From the NCBI GenBank assembly GCA_937951625.1, contig CALFBP010000026.1, positions 1 to 35,896 of the forward strand: a stretch of 35,896 nucleotides of DNA, given 5' to 3'. The notes below the pieces were generated by a model. It made no database searches and was not told where the DNA came from. It worked only from the letters and a program-made list of their open reading frames with translations. Each line of letters opens with the position of its first letter. Position 1 is the stretch's first letter. Origin of the DNA: an uncultured Thermoguttaceae bacterium. GTDB lineage: Bacteria > Planctomycetota > Planctomycetia > Pirellulales > Thermoguttaceae. Below are positions 14,798 to 34,620 of the stretch, piece by piece. Position numbers and translations under genes: made by a program.

Positions 14798-15868
14798 TCA
14801 CCATTTCGTGCCTAAACTGGGTTGCAGCGCCCCGCGCACACCAAGCTTTTCCGGGTGCCTGGCGATCGCGTCGGTGAATACCCTTGCGTCGCGAAGGATC
14901 GGCCTCAATTCGCGGCTGAGCGATTCGATGTTCATTACCGTCCGGTTCAGGTTGTCGTACAGTTCGCGGTCGGTGGCCAAGCGTCCGAGGGTGCCGCGGC
15001 CCTGATTGATGTTCTCGGTAAGCACGAGCAATTGGTCCGCCAGCCGATCGAGTTTTTCGCTCGATTGGCTCAACCGCTGAATCAAGGCCTGGCCTTGGTC
15101 GCCGAGCGCTGAGGTAAAATGATCGAGGTTGCGGAGATTGCTGTCGATGCCGACCATGACTTTGCCGGCGTCGCCGACGGTCTGCTGCGTGGCGCGGATC
15201 AGGTCGGGAAGCCGCTCGGCAGCTTCCTTGAGCTTGGCTTTGGTCTCTGGACTTCCGAACACTTCATTGAGGGAGTGGATCGCGTCGCGGGCCTCACGTG
15301 AGGCGTCCTCGGTCTGGTCCACGATGCGGTTGATCTTCTCCTGATTGGTGGCCAGCAGTTGGCTGACCTGCCTGATCGTGGCGCTCAGGTCGGAACTCGT
15401 GGTGGTGATCGAGCCGATGGCCTCGGAGAGCCGCTGCTGAAGGTTGCCGATCACCTGGAGGGGATCGACATAGGCCCGCCCCTCGATCTCGCCGCCATCG
15501 GGGAGCGGTTCCTTGGGGCCTGGCTCGGGGCTGGGATCGATCTTGATGGCGGTGTCGCCCCCGAGCAGGGAGGAGGTGATGCGGGCCACGTCGGTCTTAT
15601 AGACGACGGTGTTCTCGTCGAGTTGGGCGGTCACACGGACCCTGTCTTGCAGCGGCTTGACCTCGGTTACCCGGCCCACGTCCACACCCAAGCGGCGCAC
15701 GGGCGTGTTGACCATCACGTTGGAGGCCTCAGGAAAGAGCATGTGAATGGTTTTTCGGCCGCGTAAGACCTGCGGACCCTCACCGAACAGGAAGACGAGG
15801 ATCACCGTGATCAAGATGGCGGCCAACACGGTGAGGCCGACACGGAAGTGTATGACTCGTTCGTCCAT
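14798..15868 (-). CDS. mlaD: MCE/MlaD family substrate-binding protein
   Basis: 356 aa, twice the length of E. coli MlaD (183 aa). One N-terminal membrane helix (about 10-28) anchors it in the inner membrane. The MCE domain follows (about 38-115, with VNTPVRRLGVDVGRVTEVK). Residues 135-330 are predicted as long helices rich in Gln, Ser and Glu (repeated patterns such as QRLSEAIGSITTTS and LIQRLSQSSEKLDRLADQLL), which could form a coiled tube extending into the periplasm. It is the last gene of the mlaE-mlaF-mlaD operon, three bases behind mlaF. It should carry phospholipids between the inner and outer membranes. Confidence 0.9.
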   Translation of the reverse strand: MDERVIHFRVGLTVLAAILITVILVFLFGEGPQVLRGRKTIHMLFPEASNVMVNTPVRRLGVDVGRVTEVKPLQDRVRVTAQLDENTVVYKTDVARITSSLLGGDTAIKIDPSPEPGPKEPLPDGGEIEGRAYVDPLQVIGNLQQRLSEAIGSITTTSSDLSATIRQVSQLLATNQEKINRIVDQTEDASREARDAIHSLNEVFGSPETKAKLKEAAERLPDLIRATQQTVGDAGKVMVGIDSNLRNLDHFTSALGDQGQALIQRLSQSSEKLDRLADQLLVLTENINQGRGTLGRLATDRELYDNLNRTVMNIESLSRELRPILRDARVFTDAIARHPEKLGVRGALQPSLGTKW

Positions 15869-15871
15869 GAT

Positions 15872-16717
15872 TTACCCTTCGTATTTGGTGGCCCCATTCA
15901 ACGCCCGCAATTCCATCAGACGCTCGCCCGCCTCGCCCCGCACGAATTGCCGCACGCGGCGATCCTGGGCCGATTCCAGCAGTTGTGGTGGTCCATTGTA
16001 TAGGATTTGGGATTCGTTCGGCCCGAGGCGATTCAGGGGATAGAGCATCACGACCCGGTCGGCGACCTTTTGCGCTGTATGCATATCGTGGGTCACGACG
16101 ATGCTGGTGACGGGGTGGCGTCGCCGGGTGTTGAGGATCAATTCGTTGATGACATCGCTCATGATCGGATCGAGGCCGGTCGTCGGCTCGTCGTAAAGCA
16201 TGAGCTCCGGTTCCAAGGCCAGCGCCCGAGCCAGTCCCACCCGTTTCCGCATCCCGCCCGATAGCTCTGCCGGCTTCTTGCTCAAGATGCTTTCGGGAAG
16301 TCCGACCTCGGCCAGCCGGGCGATGACAATGTCGCGGATTTCATGCTCGGGCCGCGTGGAGTGTTGCCGCAGCGGAAAGGCCACGTTTTGGGCAATCGTC
16401 ATGCTGTCGAAGAGGGCCGCCTGCTGAAACAAAAAGCCGAATCGCACCCGCGTCCGCGTCAGCTCTTTCCGGTTCATGCGGTAAATGTCTTGGCCGTCGA
16501 AATAGACCTTGCCTTGGATCGGGCGCAGGAGCCCGATGATGGACTTCAACAGTACGGTCTTGCCGCAGCCGCTCTCGCCGATGACGGCCACCGTCTCACC
16601 CCGGGCGACCTCCAGATGAAGGTCGCGCAACACTTGCTGCCTGCCGAAGCGGACGCTCAACTGCTCGATGCGAAGCAGCGGCTGGCGCGGTTCGTGGCTC
16701 GACGTCCGATCAACCAT
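15872..16717 (-). CDS. mlaF: MlaF family ABC transporter ATPase
   Basis: 281 aa. Walker A GESGCGKT (47-54), Q-loop region FLFQQAALFDSMT, signature LSGGMRKRVGLARAL (152-166) and Walker B with LMLYDEPTTGLDP (172-184). The LSGGMRKR form and the FQQAALFDS Q-loop are typical of MlaF/Ttg2A lipid-transport ATPases. It powers the MlaE permease from the cytoplasmic side. It starts four bases after mlaE stops and ends three bases before mlaD starts, so the three genes are one operon. Length is normal (E. coli MlaF 269 aa). Confidence 0.94.
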   Translation of the reverse strand: MVDRTSSHEPRQPLLRIEQLSVRFGRQQVLRDLHLEVARGETVAVIGESGCGKTVLLKSIIGLLRPIQGKVYFDGQDIYRMNRKELTRTRVRFGFLFQQAALFDSMTIAQNVAFPLRQHSTRPEHEIRDIVIARLAEVGLPESILSKKPAELSGGMRKRVGLARALALEPELMLYDEPTTGLDPIMSDVINELILNTRRRHPVTSIVVTHDMHTAQKVADRVVMLYPLNRLGPNESQILYNGPPQLLESAQDRRVRQFVRGEAGERLMELRALNGATKYEG

Positions 16718-16721
16718 GGCC

Positions 16722-17603
16722 TCAGATCAGCGGGGGACTCTTGGGCCAGAGCATGGTGTACGTCGACTCCAGCACGATGTTCAAGAGCATATCGAGAAAG
16801 AGGATAGTACAGAAGCACTGGACAAAGGCCATGGTGGCTGCCCGGCCTACTCCCTCCGCCCCGGGATCGCAGTGAAACCCCCGATGACAACCGATCAAGG
16901 CGATCGCCGCCCCGAAAAACAGGCTCTTGAACACACCGGAAAACAGATCGAAATTGCCCACGAATCGCGCGGAATTGTGAATGTAATGGAACCAGTCGAT
17001 GTTCAGCATGTACACGCTGTAGTAAGCCGCCCCCACCACGCCCATGAAGTCAGCCATGATCGTTAAGGCGGGAATCAAAATCAGACAGGCCAGGAAACGC
17101 GGCACGACGAGATAATGGATTGGATCGGCGCCCATGCTTTCCAGGGCGTCGATCTGTTCGGTCACCCGCATCGTGCCCAATTCGGCCGACATTGCGCTGC
17201 CCACACGCCCGGCGAGCATCGTGGCCGCCAGCACAGGCCCCAATTCCCGCACCAGCGACATGTTGATCACCGCTCCCAGCCGGGTTTCCAGGTTCATCAT
17301 CCGAAACTGCGAGTAGCTTTGCACCGCCAAAATGATCCCGATAAACGTCCCGGTGAGTGCCACCACAGGCAAGCTGAGCACACCGATCTGATAAAAGGCA
17401 GGAATCAACGTGCCCTTGCGAGGCATCCGCGTCAGCAGCCATTGCAAGGTCTGGAAAGAGAAGATCGATAGACTGCCCAAGTCGGCCGTCCACTGGCTGA
17501 CGACCGCGCCAAGGTCCGCGATCCAGTCGAAAAGCCAAACGAGCCAACCGATGCGACGTGGTTGTCGAACCTTCAGAGTTCCAGCGTTGGACACGTTGGA
17601 CAT
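16722..17603 (-). CDS. mlaE: MlaE family ABC transporter permease
   Basis: 293 aa, slightly longer than E. coli MlaE (260 aa) through an N-terminal extension of about 30 residues. The MlaE domain includes FYQIGVLSLPVVALTGTFIG, the conserved RELGPVLAATMLAGRVGSAM and ELGTMRVTEQIDALESMGAD. It forms the membrane channel of the lipid transporter. ATG 17603 lacks a visible ribosome binding site; several planctomycete genes in this window do. It is the first gene of mlaE-mlaF-mlaD. No mlaB, mlaC or mlaA gene is adjacent, so the periplasmic carrier and outer membrane parts must be elsewhere or absent. Confidence 0.93.
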   Translation of the reverse strand: MSNVSNAGTLKVRQPRRIGWLVWLFDWIADLGAVVSQWTADLGSLSIFSFQTLQWLLTRMPRKGTLIPAFYQIGVLSLPVVALTGTFIGIILAVQSYSQFRMMNLETRLGAVINMSLVRELGPVLAATMLAGRVGSAMSAELGTMRVTEQIDALESMGADPIHYLVVPRFLACLILIPALTIMADFMGVVGAAYYSVYMLNIDWFHYIHNSARFVGNFDLFSGVFKSLFFGAAIALIGCHRGFHCDPGAEGVGRAATMAFVQCFCTILFLDMLLNIVLESTYTMLWPKSPPLI

Positions 17604-20636: not shown

Positions 20637-21467
20637 GTGTGCAAGGCAGAACAGGGCAGTCTTGTGGATCGATCGTGGTGGACCGATCTATTTGACGTGG
20701 CCAAACCGGTGATTGGCATGATTCATGTCTTGCCGTTACCCGGCTCGCCGCGATTCGGGGGCGACATGCATCGCGTGCGCGAAGCCATGCTTCGCGATGC
20801 GGAGGCCCTTGTCGAGGGCGGCATCCATGGGCTGCTACTGGAAAACTTCGGCGACGTTCCTTTTTGGCCCCGTCGGGTACCGGCTGCCGTGGTGGCACAC
20901 ATGACCGCGCTGGCGGTGGAGCTGCGCCGCCGCTACTCGGTCCCGCTGGGAATCAACGTGCTCCGCAACGACGGCCAAAGCGCCCTGGCAGTGGCGGATG
21001 CCGCTGGGGCCCAGTTCATTCGCGTGAATGTGTTGTGCGGCGCCCGCTTGACCGACCAAGGGATTTTGGAGGGGATTGCCCCGCAGTTGCTTCGCGACCG
21101 AGCCCGGCTCGGGACGGAGGTGAGAATTCTGGCGGACGTGGACGTGAAGCACTCGGCCCCGCTGGCCCCCCGGCCCATCGAAGCCGAGGCCGAGGAAATG
21201 CTTGTTCGCGGTCTCGCCGATGGGCTGATCGTTTCGGGGGCCACAACGGGCCGACCGGTCGATCCGGCGCATCTTCGCGCGGTCCATGCGGCTGCCCGTA
21301 ATTGTCCCGTGCTCGTCGGCAGCGGAGTCACGGCCGACAACCTTAGCCGCTTCCTCGACTCCGCCGACGGTTTCATCGTTGGCACCTGGCTGAAGTGGAA
21401 CGGGGACGTCCGCCAAGCGGTCGATCCCTCGCGCGTCAAGGCGCTTGTGGCGGCCGCGGGAGGTTAA
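20637..21467 (+). CDS. BtpA/SgcQ family TIM-barrel protein
   Basis: 276 aa. Family features: KPVIGMIHVLPLPGSPRFGG near the start, LLLENFGDVPFWPRRVPAA, GINVLRNDGQSALAVADAAG, FIRVNVLCGARLTDQGIL, ILADVDVKHSAPL and GLIVSGATTGRPVD. The fold is a phosphate-binding TIM barrel. BtpA was named for photosystem I assembly in cyanobacteria and SgcQ for a sugar operon in E. coli; neither role fits a planctomycete clearly, so the function is unknown. Start is GTG 20637; GTG 20664 is an alternative, with AGGGCAG in front, that still keeps the full domain. The stop overlaps the stop of the convergent ceramidase-like gene through TTAA. Confidence 0.9.
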   Translation: MCKAEQGSLVDRSWWTDLFDVAKPVIGMIHVLPLPGSPRFGGDMHRVREAMLRDAEALVEGGIHGLLLENFGDVPFWPRRVPAAVVAHMTALAVELRRRYSVPLGINVLRNDGQSALAVADAAGAQFIRVNVLCGARLTDQGILEGIAPQLLRDRARLGTEVRILADVDVKHSAPLAPRPIEAEAEEMLVRGLADGLIVSGATTGRPVDPAHLRAVHAAARNCPVLVGSGVTADNLSRFLDSADGFIVGTWLKWNGDVRQAVDPSRVKALVAAAGG

Positions 21468-22786
21468 AGCCCTGGCATCGTGGTCTGGAATTTGCCCATC
21501 ATGGTGTAGATGTTGATGAGGGCCTTGTCCATCATCTGCTCGCCAGCGCCGAGGGCGGCCCAACTCACGGTCGCATCGGCCCCGTAGCCCCCTTCGGCCG
21601 CCGCCTCGATCGTGGGGAAATACATGTGGTGGCCATTGCAGTATCCAAAAAAGAGGGTCTTTTTCGCCCGTGATCGGGCCTTGAGCCGAATGGCATGCTC
21701 GGCGAAAAACTCGCCCGACGCCCCGACCAACGCCAGCTCACCGTTGATCAGCACGGTGGTCAAATGCGGGTGGAGCTTGTTGTCCGCGAGGTCCTGGTTG
21801 ACGTAAGCCGCGGCAAGCTCGGGAAAGAACGCTTGGCCGAACACAGTCCGCAGCAACGGATTCCGAAAATCCAGCCGCGGCTCAAAGGTGAACGTTTCGT
21901 CCACACCCTGAATGCTTGGCTTGTCGGGCACGGTGGAGTGAATGCCCTTGGCAATCGCGATCACCTCGGCGGCCAAGGCCTTGCCGAAGGCCTCGATGCC
22001 CCGAGTGGCATCCGTGGTGCGTGGCGACAAATCGCCGGCCGCGCCTTGCATGAACACGCAGGGCGCGCCCAGGCTGCGTTCCACTTCGATCGCCATCTGG
22101 CCGGGATACTCAGCCGAAAAACGCAGATCGGCCGCGCTGAGCATGGTGGGATGGGCGGCGAAATTGACGATCAAGGCGATCGGCTTGCCTTCCAGATCGT
22201 CGAACCGCACCACGGCCAATTCCGAATCCACCGGCTTCGGTTCGATCTTGCTGTGCCGGTTGCGATTCATGGCCACCTGGGCCGATCCCCAACCGATGCG
22301 GGCGTGGCGGGCCTTGGCAGCCGCTTCGATGATGACGTCGACCAGCTTTTTTTCCAGCTCCGCCGCGTAGGTGACGGCGTCGTCGTAGACGCCTTTGCCC
22401 TCGCCCGGCCGATCGCGCAGCTCGATCACAGGGCCGCTATGGGTGTGCGAACCGGAAATCAACACGAAGCCCACGCCCCCCTCCGTTTTCACCGCCTTGC
22501 GGATGCGTTCCATCATGTCGGTCCGCGGCGCCCGTCCCAGGTCCATTCCCACAATCGCCAGCTTCTCCTCACCCGTCTCGATCACCACCGCCTTGGCAAA
22601 CAGCGGATCTCGCACGCCCTGCGAGAGGGCATTGTGCCGAGCGCCGTAACCCCACATGGGCACGGGCTTGGTTGGGGTAATCTCCCGTTGGGCATAGCCG
22701 ACTTTGAACGTCGCCGCCTCGACCGCGGCCGCCATGCTCCCCCAGGCGACCAAAACGCCAAACCAAGAACGCATGAACCTTCGCAT
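21464..22786 (-). CDS. Exported neutral/alkaline ceramidase N-domain protein
   Basis: 440 aa. A signal peptide (about 1-24, ending AVEAA) precedes a domain like the N-terminal catalytic domain of neutral ceramidase: FKVGYAQREITPTKPVPMWG, GMDLGRAPRTDMM, the metal-binding SGSHTHSGP, NFAAHPTMLSA and FMQGAAGDLSPRTT with the Ser region. The C-terminal immunoglobulin-like domain of true ceramidases is absent, since those proteins are about 650 aa. Planctomycetes carry many of these short versions, whose substrates are not known; amide or ester bonds in lipids are possible. ATG 22786 has GAGGAGACT upstream. Confidence 0.9.
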   Translation of the reverse strand: MRRFMRSWFGVLVAWGSMAAAVEAATFKVGYAQREITPTKPVPMWGYGARHNALSQGVRDPLFAKAVVIETGEEKLAIVGMDLGRAPRTDMMERIRKAVKTEGGVGFVLISGSHTHSGPVIELRDRPGEGKGVYDDAVTYAAELEKKLVDVIIEAAAKARHARIGWGSAQVAMNRNRHSKIEPKPVDSELAVVRFDDLEGKPIALIVNFAAHPTMLSAADLRFSAEYPGQMAIEVERSLGAPCVFMQGAAGDLSPRTTDATRGIEAFGKALAAEVIAIAKGIHSTVPDKPSIQGVDETFTFEPRLDFRNPLLRTVFGQAFFPELAAAYVNQDLADNKLHPHLTTVLINGELALVGASGEFFAEHAIRLKARSRAKKTLFFGYCNGHHMYFPTIEAAAEGGYGADATVSWAALGAGEQMMDKALINIYTMMGKFQTTMPGL

Positions 22787-29872: not shown

Positions 29873-31276
29873 TCATCTCGGATGTGGGTGCTCAACCGGC
29901 TTCCCCTCGCTGATGTGGATGTCGAACGTTTGGCTCTCGTCCAGACCGACCGGCACTTCCTGTCCGAGCAACTCCAGGATGAGTTGGCCCTGGACTGAAA
30001 AGTCCTCCTTGGCTTGGACAACGCGGCCTTTGTCTCGGTCGTAAACAATCGTTCCACCAGCCTGACGATGCTGGAATTCGGCCCGCACAATCCGAAAAGG
30101 CAGCGCATCGTCCGAGGGCTTGGGCGGGTGGTGTTTCAACTGGAGCGTGTAGGAGAACGGCATGAGATTGTCGCGTTGTTGCATTGGTCGGAATACGACC
30201 TTGCCGCTCCAATTTCCCAAGGGCCCCCAACGATGAGTCGTGGGACGATCCCAGGTTCGCCCACTCCCCGCAGGGCTCGGCGGCTGGAAGAATGTCAGCT
30301 CGGCGATCTCGCGCCAACCGTCAGGATCGATAATCGAGACCATTTGAATGCCTTGCCCCCCGAGCAAACTTCCGACGGTGGTATGACCCCGGGGGGCAGC
30401 CCCTTCAAAAGCCCTCACGCTGCCATCCGGACCCACCGAGATCCGAAAGCTGGCGCCGACCAGCTTGGCTAGCAAATCGCGAAGCACCCCCTGCGTGAGT
30501 GGATCAGCCTTCATCGTTTCGGCCTGCTCGACTCGCTGGAGGACCGACAGGCTGCCGTCGGCCTCGCACTTCTCCACGTTCAAAACCGATAGCACGCGAT
30601 ACTGAAGTTCGCTCGTGAAATCCATCCCCTGGATATTCAGCCGGGATCGGTGCGTTACGAGCACCTCCTGCTGGAGTCTTTCTCCAGGTGCCGACGGGGG
30701 ACTTGTTGCGCGCTCGGGAGGAAGCTGCTGCGATGGAAGTCGCCCGGCAACGGCTGGCTGTTTGGACTCCGCAGCGGGTTTGGACTCGGTAGGGGGTTGG
30801 GTTTCACCCGGCGACCACGATTTGTCTGGCGGCCGCGATTTGTGTGGCGTTCGATCCTCTCGCTCCAGTTCGACGTTCTGCCGAACTGGCAGGCCTGGAA
30901 TCAATGGCTCGCGGTGGCGGGCCCCCGCCAGGTACAACCCCTCCAAACGCGACCAATTCCCCTCGAAGACTAAGGTCGCGCGTTTGGCGTGAAACCCGTA
31001 TAGCTCGGCGACCACTTGGCCGCGTGCGTCCACGATCTTGAACTGGTGCAGATCCGGAGAGTCGGTCCCAGGGGGCACCGCCAACTCGACGTGCAGATAC
31101 TTTGAGGTCGGTATGTCCTCGGTGGCGTTGCTGTCGCGAGGCCGCGCCTCGTCGCTCCGCACCCATCGCTTGATCGACCAAGGCGGCTGGACCGGGGAAA
31201 CGACCTCTACGGCAAGAATCGTGCTGGTAACGAGCGCCCCAATGATCCCCGAGAAGAGCCGAGCCCTGCACCGCAT
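29873..31276 (-). CDS. Exported protein of unknown function with Pro-rich linker
   Basis: 467 aa from ATG 31276. The N-terminus is a signal peptide (MRCRARLFSGIIGALVTST and on to about residue 26). Residues about 27-125 form a first beta-rich domain (TSKYLHVELAVPPGTDSP, VAELYGFHAKRATLVFEGNW). A Pro/Ser/Lys-rich linker (about 140-195) with repeated PPTESKP-like and AAESKQPA-like pieces follows. Residues about 205-467 form a second domain (VLVTHRSRLNIQGMDFTSEL, VSIIDPDGWREIAELTFFQP, GGTIVYDRDKGRVVQAKEDF), whose style recalls planctomycete proteins that compute a residual signal in the cell envelope. I know no function. The gene stands alone on the minus strand. Confidence 0.72.
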   Translation of the reverse strand: MRCRARLFSGIIGALVTSTILAVEVVSPVQPPWSIKRWVRSDEARPRDSNATEDIPTSKYLHVELAVPPGTDSPDLHQFKIVDARGQVVAELYGFHAKRATLVFEGNWSRLEGLYLAGARHREPLIPGLPVRQNVELEREDRTPHKSRPPDKSWSPGETQPPTESKPAAESKQPAVAGRLPSQQLPPERATSPPSAPGERLQQEVLVTHRSRLNIQGMDFTSELQYRVLSVLNVEKCEADGSLSVLQRVEQAETMKADPLTQGVLRDLLAKLVGASFRISVGPDGSVRAFEGAAPRGHTTVGSLLGGQGIQMVSIIDPDGWREIAELTFFQPPSPAGSGRTWDRPTTHRWGPLGNWSGKVVFRPMQQRDNLMPFSYTLQLKHHPPKPSDDALPFRIVRAEFQHRQAGGTIVYDRDKGRVVQAKEDFSVQGQLILELLGQEVPVGLDESQTFDIHISEGKPVEHPHPR

Positions 31277-31612
31277 GACGACGCCCTTTAAGCAAACGAT
31301 AGGGCGGGCGTCCACGCTTTTAGAACCTTAGGTGTCGAGTGGGGTGGTTGCCTAAACGTGGAGGGCTTGCCACCCTACCCACAAAGTCGCCTGCCTGGTC
31401 CCTTCAGACCCTCGCCCTTTCGCCGCTCTTCAAGCTACCACGATCGGGCCAAAAACGCAAAGTTAAGCGTGGTGGCCGTCGCAAACAAGGCACGCTTTTT
31501 GCGCCCAAAGGACAGAAACAGTAACTAAAACCTGCGTGTAGACGCGGTGCAGATCAACGAGTCGTTCATGCCCTCGGCCTATCGAGCCGGCCCGGGAAGG
31601 ACCAGCGCGTAC
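31277..31612. other. Intergenic region, no gene seen
   Basis: About 336 bases. A plus-strand frame at 31339-31524 encodes a low-complexity basic tail but has no proper start context. No promoter pair or repeat is convincing. Confidence 0.4.
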
Positions 31613-31864
31613 TTAGGCCGCTTTTTCGTTGGCCGCGTGGATCTCTTGAAGAGTCCGCCCCAATTTTTTACGTGTGGAACCGTCAGTTAGTCGGGGGGCG
31701 GGAACCCCGCTGCCTTGATCCTGGAGGAATGCCGTGAGGCGCTGCTGCACATCATCCCCCTCTCGGGGAGTTCCAAGCGCGTGTACCGCGTCGGAAACCC
31801 CCATTAAAACCGACTGTTTAACCCCCTCACGGATCCAAGTAAAGAAGTTGAAACTGGCTGCCAT
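31613..31864 (-). CDS. Small conserved-looking hypothetical protein (83 aa)
   Basis: 83 aa from ATG 31864, preceded by GGAGAGGAGC, a strong site that excludes the ATG four codons earlier. The N-terminus has MAASFNFFTWIREGVKQSVL and continues MGVSDAVHALGTPREGDD, an amphipathic segment that may associate with membranes or form a helical bundle. The C-terminus (STRKKLGRTLQEIHAANEKAA) is basic and helical. The composition and start site indicate a real gene. I do not know its function. It is divergent to the Sua5-YwlE fusion gene, about 300 bases away. Confidence 0.65.
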   Translation of the reverse strand: MAASFNFFTWIREGVKQSVLMGVSDAVHALGTPREGDDVQQRLTAFLQDQGSGVPAPRLTDGSTRKKLGRTLQEIHAANEKAA

Positions 31865-32169
31865 GCTCCTCTCCATGAACTCGGACGCCGCGAAAGTTTC
31901 GCCCCTCAGCGAGCTCTCGCAGCGAGGTCAGGAGGTTACCTATTCCGCGGATTGGTGTCCAGACGGAAATAGAGCCGTTTTAACGTTTCGATGTTCCAGA
32001 GTCTGCACGTTTTCGCACGATGCTGCCGTAACGAAGTTGCCAAACCGACATGTCCCAGATTACTCCTCCTGTGGAGGGGTAGAAATCCCAAAGACCGGTT
32101 TTCCAAACAAACTTGTTCGAGTAGTATTAGTGACGGTTGGTCTATCGGCGTCTCGTGCGGGGAGGATGC
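31865..32169. other. Divergent intergenic region upstream of the Sua5-YwlE fusion gene
   Basis: About 305 bases with no gene. Weak AT-rich -10-like sequence (TAGTAT, about 32124-32129) lies before the fusion gene but has no good -35. Nothing else stands out. Confidence 0.35.
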
Positions 32170-33291
32170 ATGCGGCCGTTCGTAATTGATGTTAGATCTG
32201 CGGACGACGTCCGCGATGTGGTGCATCGCGCGGTCCAAGCCCTGGCCGAGGGCCGTTTAGTGGCCTTCCCGACCGAAACCGTGTACGGTTTAGCCGCCCA
32301 TGCCTTGGCCCCGCAGGCGGTGGAGCGGTTGCTCGCCGTCAAACGTCGTAAACAGGGTCACCCCATCACTCTAGCGATTCGGAGCCTTGAGGATGCTTTG
32401 GATTATGTGCCTAACATGAATCGTTTGGCTCACCGCTTGGCCCGACGGGTTTGGCCCGGCCCCATCACCTTGGTTCTCGATGCCACCCATCCCGAGGGTT
32501 TGCTCCGTCGGCTGCCGTTGGAGGTTCAGCGCGCCGTCGCGCCCGAAGGAACGGTCGGGCTTCGCGTGCCCGGCCACAGGATGGTGCTCGATGTGTTGCA
32601 GTTTATTCCTGGGCCCATCGCTCTCACGAGCGCCAATCGTGGCGGCGAGCCCGACCCACTCACCGCTCAGGATGTTGTAGGTGCTCTCCAAGACGACGTG
32701 GATTTGGTATTGGACGACGGGCCATCGCGATACGGGCAGCCGTCCACAGTGATTCAGGTGGAAAACGGTGAATTAACCGTATTGCGGGAAGGGGCGGTAC
32801 CAGAACGAACTATCCGTCGTCTGAGTTCTTTTATGGTCTTGTTTGTCTGTACAGGCAACACCTGCCGCAGTCCCATGGCTGAGGCGATTTGCCGAAAAAT
32901 CCTTGCCGACCGGCTTAATTGCGATGTGAACCAACTGGAAGATCGAGGGGTGATCGTCATGTCGGCAGGGGTTAGTGCTATAGAGGGTGGTCGAGCTAGC
33001 CCCGAGGCGGTAGAAATCTTGGCTAAGATGGGCGTAAATCTCGAGGCACACGAAACCCAACCTGTGAGTGATTCGATTGTCCGCCAAGCGGATGCGATTT
33101 ACACCATGACACAATCGCATCTTCGGGCAATCCTCGCCCAATGGCCAGACGTGGCTGGTCGCTTGCAGACGCTTAACCCTTCTGGAGAGGATATTTTAGA
33201 TCCTATAGGTGGGTCGGTGGAAAGATACCAACGGTGCGCCAAGGAAATTGAAACGCACCTCAGGGCCCGGATCAAGGAATTCGAGCTGTAG
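32170..33291 (+). CDS. Fusion of Sua5/YrdC threonylcarbamoyl-AMP synthase and YwlE-type arginine phosphatase
   Basis: 373 aa in one unbroken frame. Residues about 8-215 are a YrdC/Sua5 domain (VAFPTETVYGLAAHA, KRRKQGHPITLAI, RRVWPGPITLVLD, GTVGLRVPGH, PIALTSANRGGE, STVIQVENGELTVLREGAV), which makes threonylcarbamoyl-AMP for the t6A tRNA modification. The C-terminal extension of archaeal Sua5 is absent. Residues 222-373 are a low-molecular-weight phosphatase: FVCTGNTCRSPMAEA with nucleophile C227 and DILDPIGGSVERY with general acid D344. Thr231 in the loop (Ile in tyrosine phosphatases) marks the YwlE protein-arginine phosphatase class. GGGGAGG precedes ATG 32170. rpiB follows, as in the Bacillus ywlC-ywlE-ywlF order. 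Confidence 0.9.
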   Translation: MRPFVIDVRSADDVRDVVHRAVQALAEGRLVAFPTETVYGLAAHALAPQAVERLLAVKRRKQGHPITLAIRSLEDALDYVPNMNRLAHRLARRVWPGPITLVLDATHPEGLLRRLPLEVQRAVAPEGTVGLRVPGHRMVLDVLQFIPGPIALTSANRGGEPDPLTAQDVVGALQDDVDLVLDDGPSRYGQPSTVIQVENGELTVLREGAVPERTIRRLSSFMVLFVCTGNTCRSPMAEAICRKILADRLNCDVNQLEDRGVIVMSAGVSAIEGGRASPEAVEILAKMGVNLEAHETQPVSDSIVRQADAIYTMTQSHLRAILAQWPDVAGRLQTLNPSGEDILDPIGGSVERYQRCAKEIETHLRARIKEFEL

Positions 33292-33400
33292 CCGCGTCCA
33301 TCGGGTGGCGGCAGTTTTGTGGCCTTGCGGCCGCAGGTCAAGTTGGGGAAGCGGGGAAGGGATTTTTTAGGGCGGAAATCAAGTAGAACGGTAACACACC

Positions 33401-33883
33401 ATGCGGATTGCAGTGGGCGCTGATCATCGCGGTTTTTCGATCCGCAATAAGGTCGTGGAATTGCTGAAACGCCTGGGGCACGAGGTTTTGGACATGGGCG
33501 TTTTCGGCGAGGATCCCGTGGACTACCCCGACATCGCAGCCGCTGTGGCACGATTGGTCAGTGATGGACAGGTGGAGCGGGGGATTCTGATCTGCGGAAC
33601 CGGTCTGGGGATGTGCATCGCCGCGAACAAATTTCCGAACGTTCGGGCCGCGCCGTGTCACGACGACTTGACCGCTGAAATGAGCCGACGGCACAACGAT
33701 CTCAACGTCCTTTGCCTTTCCGCAGACATGCTCGGCGAGCGACTGATCGACCGAATGATTGAAATCTGGCTGAACACGCCTTTCGAGGGCGGGCGGCACG
33801 CCCGGCGGGTCGACAAGATCGCACGCCTCGAGCGTGAGTATCTCGCCCAAATCCCGAAAGACAACGAACCCTCGCAGTCGTAG
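33401..33883 (+). CDS. rpiB: Ribose-5-phosphate isomerase B
   Basis: 160 aa. It interconverts ribose 5-phosphate and ribulose 5-phosphate in the pentose phosphate pathway. Conserved features: AVGADHRGF (D8, H9), the catalytic C65 in LICGTGLGMCIAANK with T67, and H98 in SRRHNDLN, plus VLCLSADMLG. Length is typical. ATG 33401 is chosen as the only start that begins the fold (MRIAVGADHRG). It lies 109 bases behind the Sua5-YwlE fusion on the same strand. The neighbourhood matches ywlF (rpiB) of Bacillus. Confidence 0.95.
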   Translation: MRIAVGADHRGFSIRNKVVELLKRLGHEVLDMGVFGEDPVDYPDIAAAVARLVSDGQVERGILICGTGLGMCIAANKFPNVRAAPCHDDLTAEMSRRHNDLNVLCLSADMLGERLIDRMIEIWLNTPFEGGRHARRVDKIARLEREYLAQIPKDNEPSQS

Positions 33884-33975: not shown

Positions 33976-34026
33976 CGAAAGCGTGGGCCGTAAAAAATGC
34001 TTTGGACGCCGCGAGGCGTCCCGGCA

Positions 34027-34620
34027 ATGACCAAGGCAGGCGAGACACCAATGGCCGAATCAAGATACTCCGCTTCCAGCGAACTCGACGAACTCCTACG
34101 TAACGCTGAACTCCGCGACGAATTGGAACCCTACTACGACGAGTCGATCAGCCGCGTGAGTGTGCAGCGGCTCCCGCTGGCGGTCGAGAACGAATACCTG
34201 GCCAGCATGTTGGCCTGGGAGACGGCGCCGATTGTGCCGATTTTTCGCTGGTTCGAGCCCGAGCTTCGGCCCCCCCGGCCCTCGGCCCTGAACGACGCCG
34301 ATTTGCACGAGATCCTTTGGGATTTGATCTACAAGCTGTACGAGAAGAGGATCGTACTTGATTTCACGGATCACCTCTCGGATCGGGAACTCTACACGCT
34401 GATCTACCGCCATATCCTGCCCGCAAGGGAAAAGAAAATTGACGCTCGGACCGGTTTCCTGCACTGGGACTGTGCTTCGGTGGGCGGCGATCCGGAGGTT
34501 TGGCTCCGCTACTACGCCAGCGAAGAGGAGCGTCAAGCCTGGGCGGAGACGTATCGACAACCGCTCCCGCCCGCGGAGATTCCCGCCTATCCGCGGGCCA
34601 TGCCGGGGGAACCGGCCTGA
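34027..34620 (+). CDS. Uncharacterised soluble protein (197 aa)
   Basis: 197 aa from ATG 34027; ATG 34051 (with GGCGAGAC upstream) and ATG 33997 are alternatives, and only the first few residues change. No signal peptide or membrane helix. The middle has conserved-looking aromatic patches (ENEYLASMLAWETAPIVPIF, RWFEPELRPPRPSALNDADL, LHEILWDLIYKLYEKRIVLD, FTDHLSDRELYTLIYRHILP), then HWDCASVGGDPEVWLRYYAS and a Pro-rich tail. This reads as a real cytoplasmic protein, and I recall similar sequences only from planctomycetes. Function unknown. It is on the same strand as rpiB, 143 bases behind it. Confidence 0.7.
   Translation: MTKAGETPMAESRYSASSELDELLRNAELRDELEPYYDESISRVSVQRLPLAVENEYLASMLAWETAPIVPIFRWFEPELRPPRPSALNDADLHEILWDLIYKLYEKRIVLDFTDHLSDRELYTLIYRHILPAREKKIDARTGFLHWDCASVGGDPEVWLRYYASEEERQAWAETYRQPLPPAEIPAYPRAMPGEPA

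Follow-up and report, generated by a model that had tools for sequence, protein, structure and literature searches.

We analyzed a 35,896-nucleotide (nt) stretch of DNA, hereafter the window, from an uncultured Thermoguttaceae bacterium of the phylum Planctomycetota (contig CALFBP010000026.1), and found in it a single reading frame that joins a TsaC/Sua5 (YrdC) domain to a YwlE-type phosphatase and is followed by rpiB. We consider it probable, at roughly 0.8, that this fusion unites an enzyme of N6-threonylcarbamoyladenosine (t6A) tRNA modification with a protein-arginine phosphatase and that it derived from a sua5-ywlE-rpiB gene cluster. The N-terminal half would make threonylcarbamoyl-AMP (TC-AMP) for t6A, while the C-terminal half, located where canonical Sua5 has its Sua5_C domain, would undo arginine phosphorylation by the McsA-McsB kinase of the same genome and thereby rescue proteins from ClpC-ClpP.

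Protein arginine phosphorylation has been described mainly in Gram-positive bacteria. Searches of the open-access literature, with subscription papers and preprints outside it, showed nothing on a Sua5-YwlE fusion or on arginine phosphorylation in planctomycetes among the papers listed, which were judged mostly by their titles and the first lines of their abstracts; in the excerpts of PMC4395418, arginine phosphorylation and Planctomycet terms appear only in a taxon key and the reference list.

Architecture and spread of the fusion

The initial annotation had described a Sua5/YrdC domain fused to a YwlE-type phosphatase with the loop CTGNTCRSP, followed by rpiB, and this was confirmed by Pfam, NCBIfam and the coordinates of the frames (Table 1). 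Pfam placed PF01300 at residues 24-208 (163 bits) and PF01451 (LMWPc) at residues 223-365 (94 bits) of the 373-amino-acid (aa) protein, and the rpiB start lies 109 nt downstream of the fusion stop. The AlphaFold2 (AF2) model of the fusion, based on an alignment of 48 fusions, had a mean predicted local distance difference test score of 96.9 and a predicted template modeling score (pTM) of 0.91.

Table 1. Features of the fusion locus, in window coordinates
Feature	Position	Strand	Basis
Fused TsaC/Sua5 (YrdC)-YwlE-type phosphatase, 373 aa	32170..33291	+	ATG at 32170, stop ends 33291; Pfam, NCBIfam, AF2
YrdC/TsaC half, residues 1-214, predicted L-threonylcarbamoyladenylate synthase	32170..32811	+	TIGR00057, PF01300, fold match
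KxR of KxR/SxN tetrad, K58-R-R60	32341..32349	+	alignment to the tetrad given in excerpts of PMC9654439 and PMC10321239
SxN of KxR/SxN tetrad, S154-A-N156	32629..32637	+	
YwlE-type phosphatase half, residues 220-373	32827..33288	+	PF01451; best-scoring solved chains are YwlE
Predicted catalytic loop CTGNTCRSP, C227-P235, Thr at position 5	32848..32874	+	role of position 5 from excerpts of PMC8001253
General-acid motif Asp344-Pro345 (DPIGG)	33199..33204	+	
rpiB, ribose-5-phosphate isomerase B, next same-strand gene	33401..33883	+	NF004051, 184.7 bits

Fusions of this kind are common across the phylum. Of 195 planctomycete genomes sampled, each at least 90% complete, 192 had matches to the fusion protein (P0001). 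We retrieved 143 loci, 30 supplied by the P0001 search and 113 from hand-chosen rows that mostly cover both halves. A fusion is encoded at 140 of these loci, a phosphatase with no YrdC half at 2, and a YrdC domain with no phosphatase at 1. The count of fusions is a lower bound for the sample (at least 140), and two fusions found later, one in genome G121 and another, highly divergent, in G088, are excluded from it. Among the best 80 of at least 588 relatives, whose record titles presumably all carry planctomycete names, P0001 aligns unbroken over both halves in 74 of the 80 named loci, the nearest being a Pirellulales metagenome-assembled genome with 60% identity. Of the 140 loci, 88 have a same-strand rpiB no more than 400 nt downstream of the fusion; at the other 52 none was found in that interval.

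Because the two-domain frame recurs in 140 of the 143 loci, chance is excluded. Assembly chimerism and an isolated fusion event were rejected too, the fusion being widespread in the phylum and found in single-contig genomes (G114, G036, G164). Outside Planctomycetota, fusions were sampled only via plasmid-labelled records, which yielded a single one, in Monoglobus (see below).

Active sites of the two halves and their partners

The first half scored 156.6 bits with TIGR00057 (L-threonylcarbamoyladenylate synthase), over the cut-off of 123.2, and the best fold match of its AF2 model was P. abyssi Sua5 (6f89; Z 30.0, root-mean-square deviation 1.8 over 208 residues). The KxR/SxN tetrad, the catalytic mark of the Sua5 family according to excerpts of PMC10321239 and PMC9654439, is complete (K58, R60, S154, N156). 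Judged by its domain content, this half is a TsaC-type catalytic domain and not a two-domain Sua5, because Sua5_C (PF03481) is missing both from the protein by Pfam and from the genome as searched. The fusion is also the sole Sua5/TsaC found in the genome, where the only other PF01300 match is HypF.

The residues of the phosphatase half are intact as well (Cys227, Thr231, Arg233, Asp344). In excerpts of PMC8001253, position 5 of the loop steers the choice of substrate, Thr toward phosphoarginine and Ile toward phosphotyrosine; Ile, the mark of low-molecular-weight protein-tyrosine phosphatases (LMW-PTP), is not present in the fusion, which has Thr instead. The acid motif D344-P-I-G-G resembles DPFGG of YwlE in its DP-x-GG setting. 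Across the phylum, Thr prevails at position 5, in 122 of the 140 fusions; over 142 phosphatase domains the residues are Thr 124, Ser 6, Ile 4, Leu 4, Arg 3 and Met 1. A single-sequence search of solved chains gave YwlE as best match (about 85 bits), and a PDB search with a profile of 24 phosphatase domains scored YwlE at up to 126 bits and 4egs at 122, whereas the top score among other tyrosine phosphatases was 93 (2cwd) and ArsC reached 70. The entry 4egs is titled tyrosine phosphatase, yet has the same Thr loop.

If the C-terminal half were instead a conventional tyrosine phosphatase, or an arsenate reductase linked to thioredoxin, the shared Pfam family (PF01451) would be explained equally, and position 5 is indeed Ile or Leu in 8 of the 142 loops. 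The fold is not decisive: the YwlE entries gave Z scores of 23.2-25.5 together with 4egs, almost level with 2cwd at 24.6, and no other tyrosine phosphatase listed exceeded 23.9. The Wzb and ArsC models listed by NCBIfam score far below their cut-offs (for ArsC, NF010053 at 45.3 bits against 215 and TIGR02691 at 39.3 against 174.3), and none of its YwlE models matches the phosphatase half; an annotated arginine phosphatase gene from Listeria likewise stays under all cut-offs. Both identities were nevertheless rejected on the loop residue and the profile scores, and we regard them as very unlikely. Moreover, the window already holds a separate ArsC-like gene of the LMWPc family (256-687, − strand; 143 aa, loop CTGNSCRSQ), one of only two other LMWPc matches in the genome, the second having the loop CTANYYRSR. 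The C-terminal half thus very probably acts on phosphoarginine, as predicted from its loop and nearest sequences.

One variant of the loop deserves mention. In family f41 (loci L070, L072, L087, L110, L123) it reads C[TA]GNTDRSP, the second Cys being replaced by Asp in 5 of 5 sampled genomes while Thr and Arg are kept. This change may remove redox control.

The initial annotation had suggested protein arginine phosphorylation in this planctomycete, and the genome holds the partners that go with it. A search with PF00217 (McsB-type kinase domain) returned one gene (L002:6260-7345), which is McsB by NF002194 (480 bits, cut-off 385); it scored 412 bits with NF053707, below the cut-off of 500, and 320 bits with the solved protein-arginine kinase 6fh1, and its catalytic motifs are present. 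Directly before mcsB lies an McsA-like gene (128.8 bits, below its own cut-off of 210). The best Clp_N protein of the genome is a ClpC-like frame (L333) with two GTEH motifs, whose Glu residues we take to be those that bind phosphoarginine in Bacillus ClpC. An entire writer-eraser-reader set (McsA-like, McsB, YwlE domain, ClpC) is therefore seen in one planctomycete genome. The kinase was also found in relatives, with PF00217 matches in 190 of the 195 genomes. McsB, ClpC, the Thr loop and YwlE as nearest sequence together support the predicted arginine phosphorylation.

Retention and decay of the two halves

A fusion of a t6A enzyme with a phosphoarginine phosphatase predicts half-by-half retention, and this is seen in two natural experiments. 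The first is offered by fused genomes that also have a canonical Sua5, scored here by PF03481, to which a second short TsaC is invisible. PF03481 was present in 55 of the 195 genomes and in 40 of the 140 fused ones. In these 40, the YrdC residues K, S and N were all kept in 3 and at least one was lost in 37, the full tetrad remained in 1, and the phosphatase residues were intact in 40 of 40. Of the 100 fused genomes without canonical Sua5, 96 retained K, S and N, 85 the full tetrad and 98 the phosphatase residues. Alignment gaps were treated as loss, which accounts for one of the four exceptions (G098). For the tetrad, Fisher's test gave 4e-21, relatedness ignored.

Within families that contain both kinds of genome, the contrast was found in f2, f22, f24, f33 and f47 and only partially in f54 and f48; in f4 and f17, the single genome without a detected canonical Sua5 had decayed like its sisters. 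We ran independent-pairs tests on a tree built from only the phosphatase half and, as this had too few supported branches, then on a full-length tree without the four tetrad columns. For the full tetrad on the full-length tree there were 10 supported pairs, with 6.4 in the predicted direction, 0.1 in the opposite one and a median p of 0.031 (range 0.016-0.125). A Thr-type YwlE without YrdC partner was found in 13 planctomycete genomes, 13 of 13 having canonical Sua5; of the other unfused genomes, 2 of 42 have it.

K, S or N is missing in 41 of the 140 Sua5 halves, so any tie to tRNA modification is not always catalytic. Such halves showed ratios of nonsynonymous to synonymous substitution rates (dN/dS) of 0.03-0.14 in six hand-picked pairs (two share a locus; three have dS >1), and a seventh pair, with the tetrad KGSN, gave 0.26.

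The second natural experiment concerns the kinase. Since PF00217 is nearly universal in the phylum, a correlation of presence and absence between kinase and phosphatase is uninformative, and we used the decay of catalytic residues instead. Among 54 McsB loci inspected across the phylum, the NEEDH, CPTN and YGEG motifs keep their Glu and Cys residues in 51; of the other three, the locus in G028 is truncated at the edge of its contig, and those in G179 and G191 (L196 and L197) have lost every one of these residues. These two genomes, both of genus g137, also carry the only 2 of 140 fusions without a phosphatase catalytic Cys, Arg or Asp: the loop reads CEANTLSSP, with Arg lost, and the acid Asp is replaced by Glu. 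The other three genomes of the family, from two other genera, retain the motifs in both McsB and phosphatase. A triple decay that includes ClpC was sought in g137 and not observed, as both GTEH motifs are present in G179 and G191.

The dead kinase of this genus is a full-length frame of 361 aa that still adjoins an McsA-like frame, and the dead phosphatase is full length too. Between G179 and G191, dN/dS was 0.049 for the kinase and 0.065 for the phosphatase, which indicates purifying selection on both; no explanation offered here accounts for it. Taken together, judging from the conserved residues, each half stays catalytic mostly while its own need persists, the Sua5 half as sole source of TC-AMP and the phosphatase while McsB is catalytic.

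Several observations, besides the nearly tied fold scores, weigh against our reading. The near-universal kinase domain cannot discriminate by its presence, and the joint decay of kinase and phosphatase is one evolutionary event in one genus, in which the ClpC motifs were retained. Position 5 is not Thr in 18 of the 140 fusions, including families f14 (Leu/Ile), f22 (Arg) and f38 (Ile), and in these three the McsB catalytic motifs look intact, the McsB of f38 being divergent (E-41 to E-46). Family f32 (18 genomes) has strong McsB matches (E-67 to E-70) and no YwlE-type match was found in it: with the phosphatase profile, 15 of 18 genomes had no match at E 1e-5 and 3 of 18 only non-YwlE-like loops. 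As far as this profile shows, the f32 kinase stands without the eraser that normally accompanies it. Three fused genomes that are 90-93% complete (G104, G105, G186) have no McsB match over cut-off, two of them showing scraps at E 0.07. As for the pairs tests, the laxer K/S/N criterion on the full-length tree gave 5.5 pairs in the predicted direction and 0.0 opposite (median p 0.0625), while the phosphatase-half tree had only 5 supported pairs, with 3.8 predicted and 0 opposite for the full tetrad (median p 0.125) and 3.0 and 0 for the laxer criterion (p 0.25).

Origin of the join and comparison with known systems

The order Sua5, phosphatase, rpiB had been equated initially with Bacillus ywlC-ywlE-ywlF, with the suggestion that the fusion may come from that operon. 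The Bacillus order was not borne out in Priestia, a Bacillaceae record for which only the feature list was used, where an MntP gene lies between the Sua5 and arginine phosphatase genes. The adjacent order was found in Clostridia instead: Acetoanaerobium has sua5, ywlE, rpiB and upp side by side (frames and Pfam). In Listeria, sua5 overlaps the gene annotated as arginine phosphatase by 4 bases. Further, Monoglobus pectinilyticus (L364:3435-4961), also of the Clostridia, encodes a 508-residue fusion in which Sua5_C lies between YrdC and a Thr-type YwlE domain; rimI and tsaD come next. Because its make-up differs from that of the planctomycete fusion, a separate, independent event is suggested. 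The clostridial gene order and this independent fusion support the proposed origin of our fusion from a sua5-ywlE-rpiB operon, which we infer from these comparisons.

The cluster shows other joins as well. The planctomycete G163 has a YwlE-RpiB fusion (L217, 317-aa frame), and the T. tengcongensis entry 4egs bears the molecule name RpiB with the sequence of a YwlE-like phosphatase domain; from this name, we infer that the full-length protein is a YwlE-RpiB fusion. With such joins known, and with sua5 and ywlE adjacent in Acetoanaerobium and Listeria, the planctomycete fusion could be a neutral one, in which both activities are real, the join has no function beyond co-expression and the phosphatase acts on the proteome at large, as it does in Bacillus. 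We give this slightly less than even odds. The 13 genomes with solo YwlE and canonical Sua5 agree with it, whereas the YrdC halves without K, S or N, which remain fused and under purifying selection, do not; nor do the Monoglobus fusion ahead of rimI and tsaD and the AF2 model, which positions both halves with high overall confidence (pTM 0.91).

The same purifying selection on non-catalytic halves and the convergent Monoglobus fusion would fit a phosphatase that the YrdC half brings to t6A enzymes, TsaD foremost, shielding them from McsB-ClpC, so that t6A supply is tuned to stress and pseudo-Sua5 halves are docking modules. Excerpts of PMC7546277 place TsaD, the enzyme that takes up the Sua5 product, among the McsB/YwlE targets of B. 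subtilis: its Arg282 is phosphorylated, ClpCP degrades it, and McsB is counteracted by YwlE. By analogy, that work and the fusion suggest a functional tie of the phosphatase to tRNA modification, and a phosphatase borne by the Sua5 half may be well placed to protect TsaD. We hold such docking to be possible but rather unlikely. A solo YwlE suffices in 13 genomes, a structural need for the fold alone could equally explain the selection, and Arg282 could not be located in planctomycete TsaD, as no B. subtilis TsaD chain matched among solved structures. A shade more doubtful is a phylum-wide stress circuit in which the t6A enzyme carries its arginine phosphatase to keep TsaD and other t6A proteins free of the McsB degron, with pseudo-Sua5 docking after a second Sua5 arrives. 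If true, tRNA modification and ClpC proteolysis would be tuned together.

With a t6A enzyme fused to an arginine phosphatase, as we prefer to read the frame, an eraser would be covalently linked to an enzyme that makes the precursor for a tRNA modification essential to the cell. A protein-quality mark described chiefly in Gram-positive bacteria would then appear, in a different phylum, to be coupled to the translation machinery. Lineages with one decayed half are natural mutants for probing the role of each half, and the Bacillus hint of TsaD as a McsB/YwlE target becomes directly testable in another phylum.

As for the surroundings in the window, three frames around the fusion are without Pfam or NCBIfam match (29873-31315 and 31613-31876 on the − strand; 33997-34620 on the + strand, directly after rpiB). 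Genes for MlaD, an ABC ATPase and an MlaE permease lie in series at 14798-17603 (−), forming an Mla-type lipid transport cluster, and a frame at 21464-22786 (−) matches PF04734, which covers the N-terminal region of neutral/alkaline ceramidase (45 bits).

Compared with known systems, the phosphatase half shares with Bacillus subtilis YwlE and Staphylococcus aureus PtpB the CX5R loop with Thr at position 5 and the DP general acid followed by x-G-G, and McsA-McsB-ClpC are present in its genome, as in their setting. YwlE, however, is an enzyme of about 150 aa that stands on its own, whereas the putative arginine phosphatase domain described here is the C-terminal half of a t6A enzyme, in a planctomycete. 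With Sua5/TsaC the fusion has in common a TIGR00057 score over cut-off, the KxR/SxN tetrad and the Sua5 fold (Z 30), but it has a phosphatase in the place of the canonical Sua5_C domain. Like TsaN (the TsaD-TsaC-SUA5-TcdA modular enzyme, PDB 8ide), HypF and TobZ, it holds a YrdC/TsaC domain within a multi-domain enzyme of t6A or carbamoylation; unlike it, these have Kae1/TsaD-type and other domains as partners, and no LMW-PTP-type phosphatase is mentioned in the TsaN title or the excerpts of PMC9654439, or seen in the Pfam domains of the HypF of this genome. The 4egs protein and L217 resemble the fusion in joining a YwlE-type domain to a cluster neighbor, though that neighbor is RpiB and not Sua5. 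The Monoglobus fusion likewise has Sua5 and a Thr-type YwlE domain in a single reading frame, but with Sua5_C between the halves and a position before rimI and tsaD.

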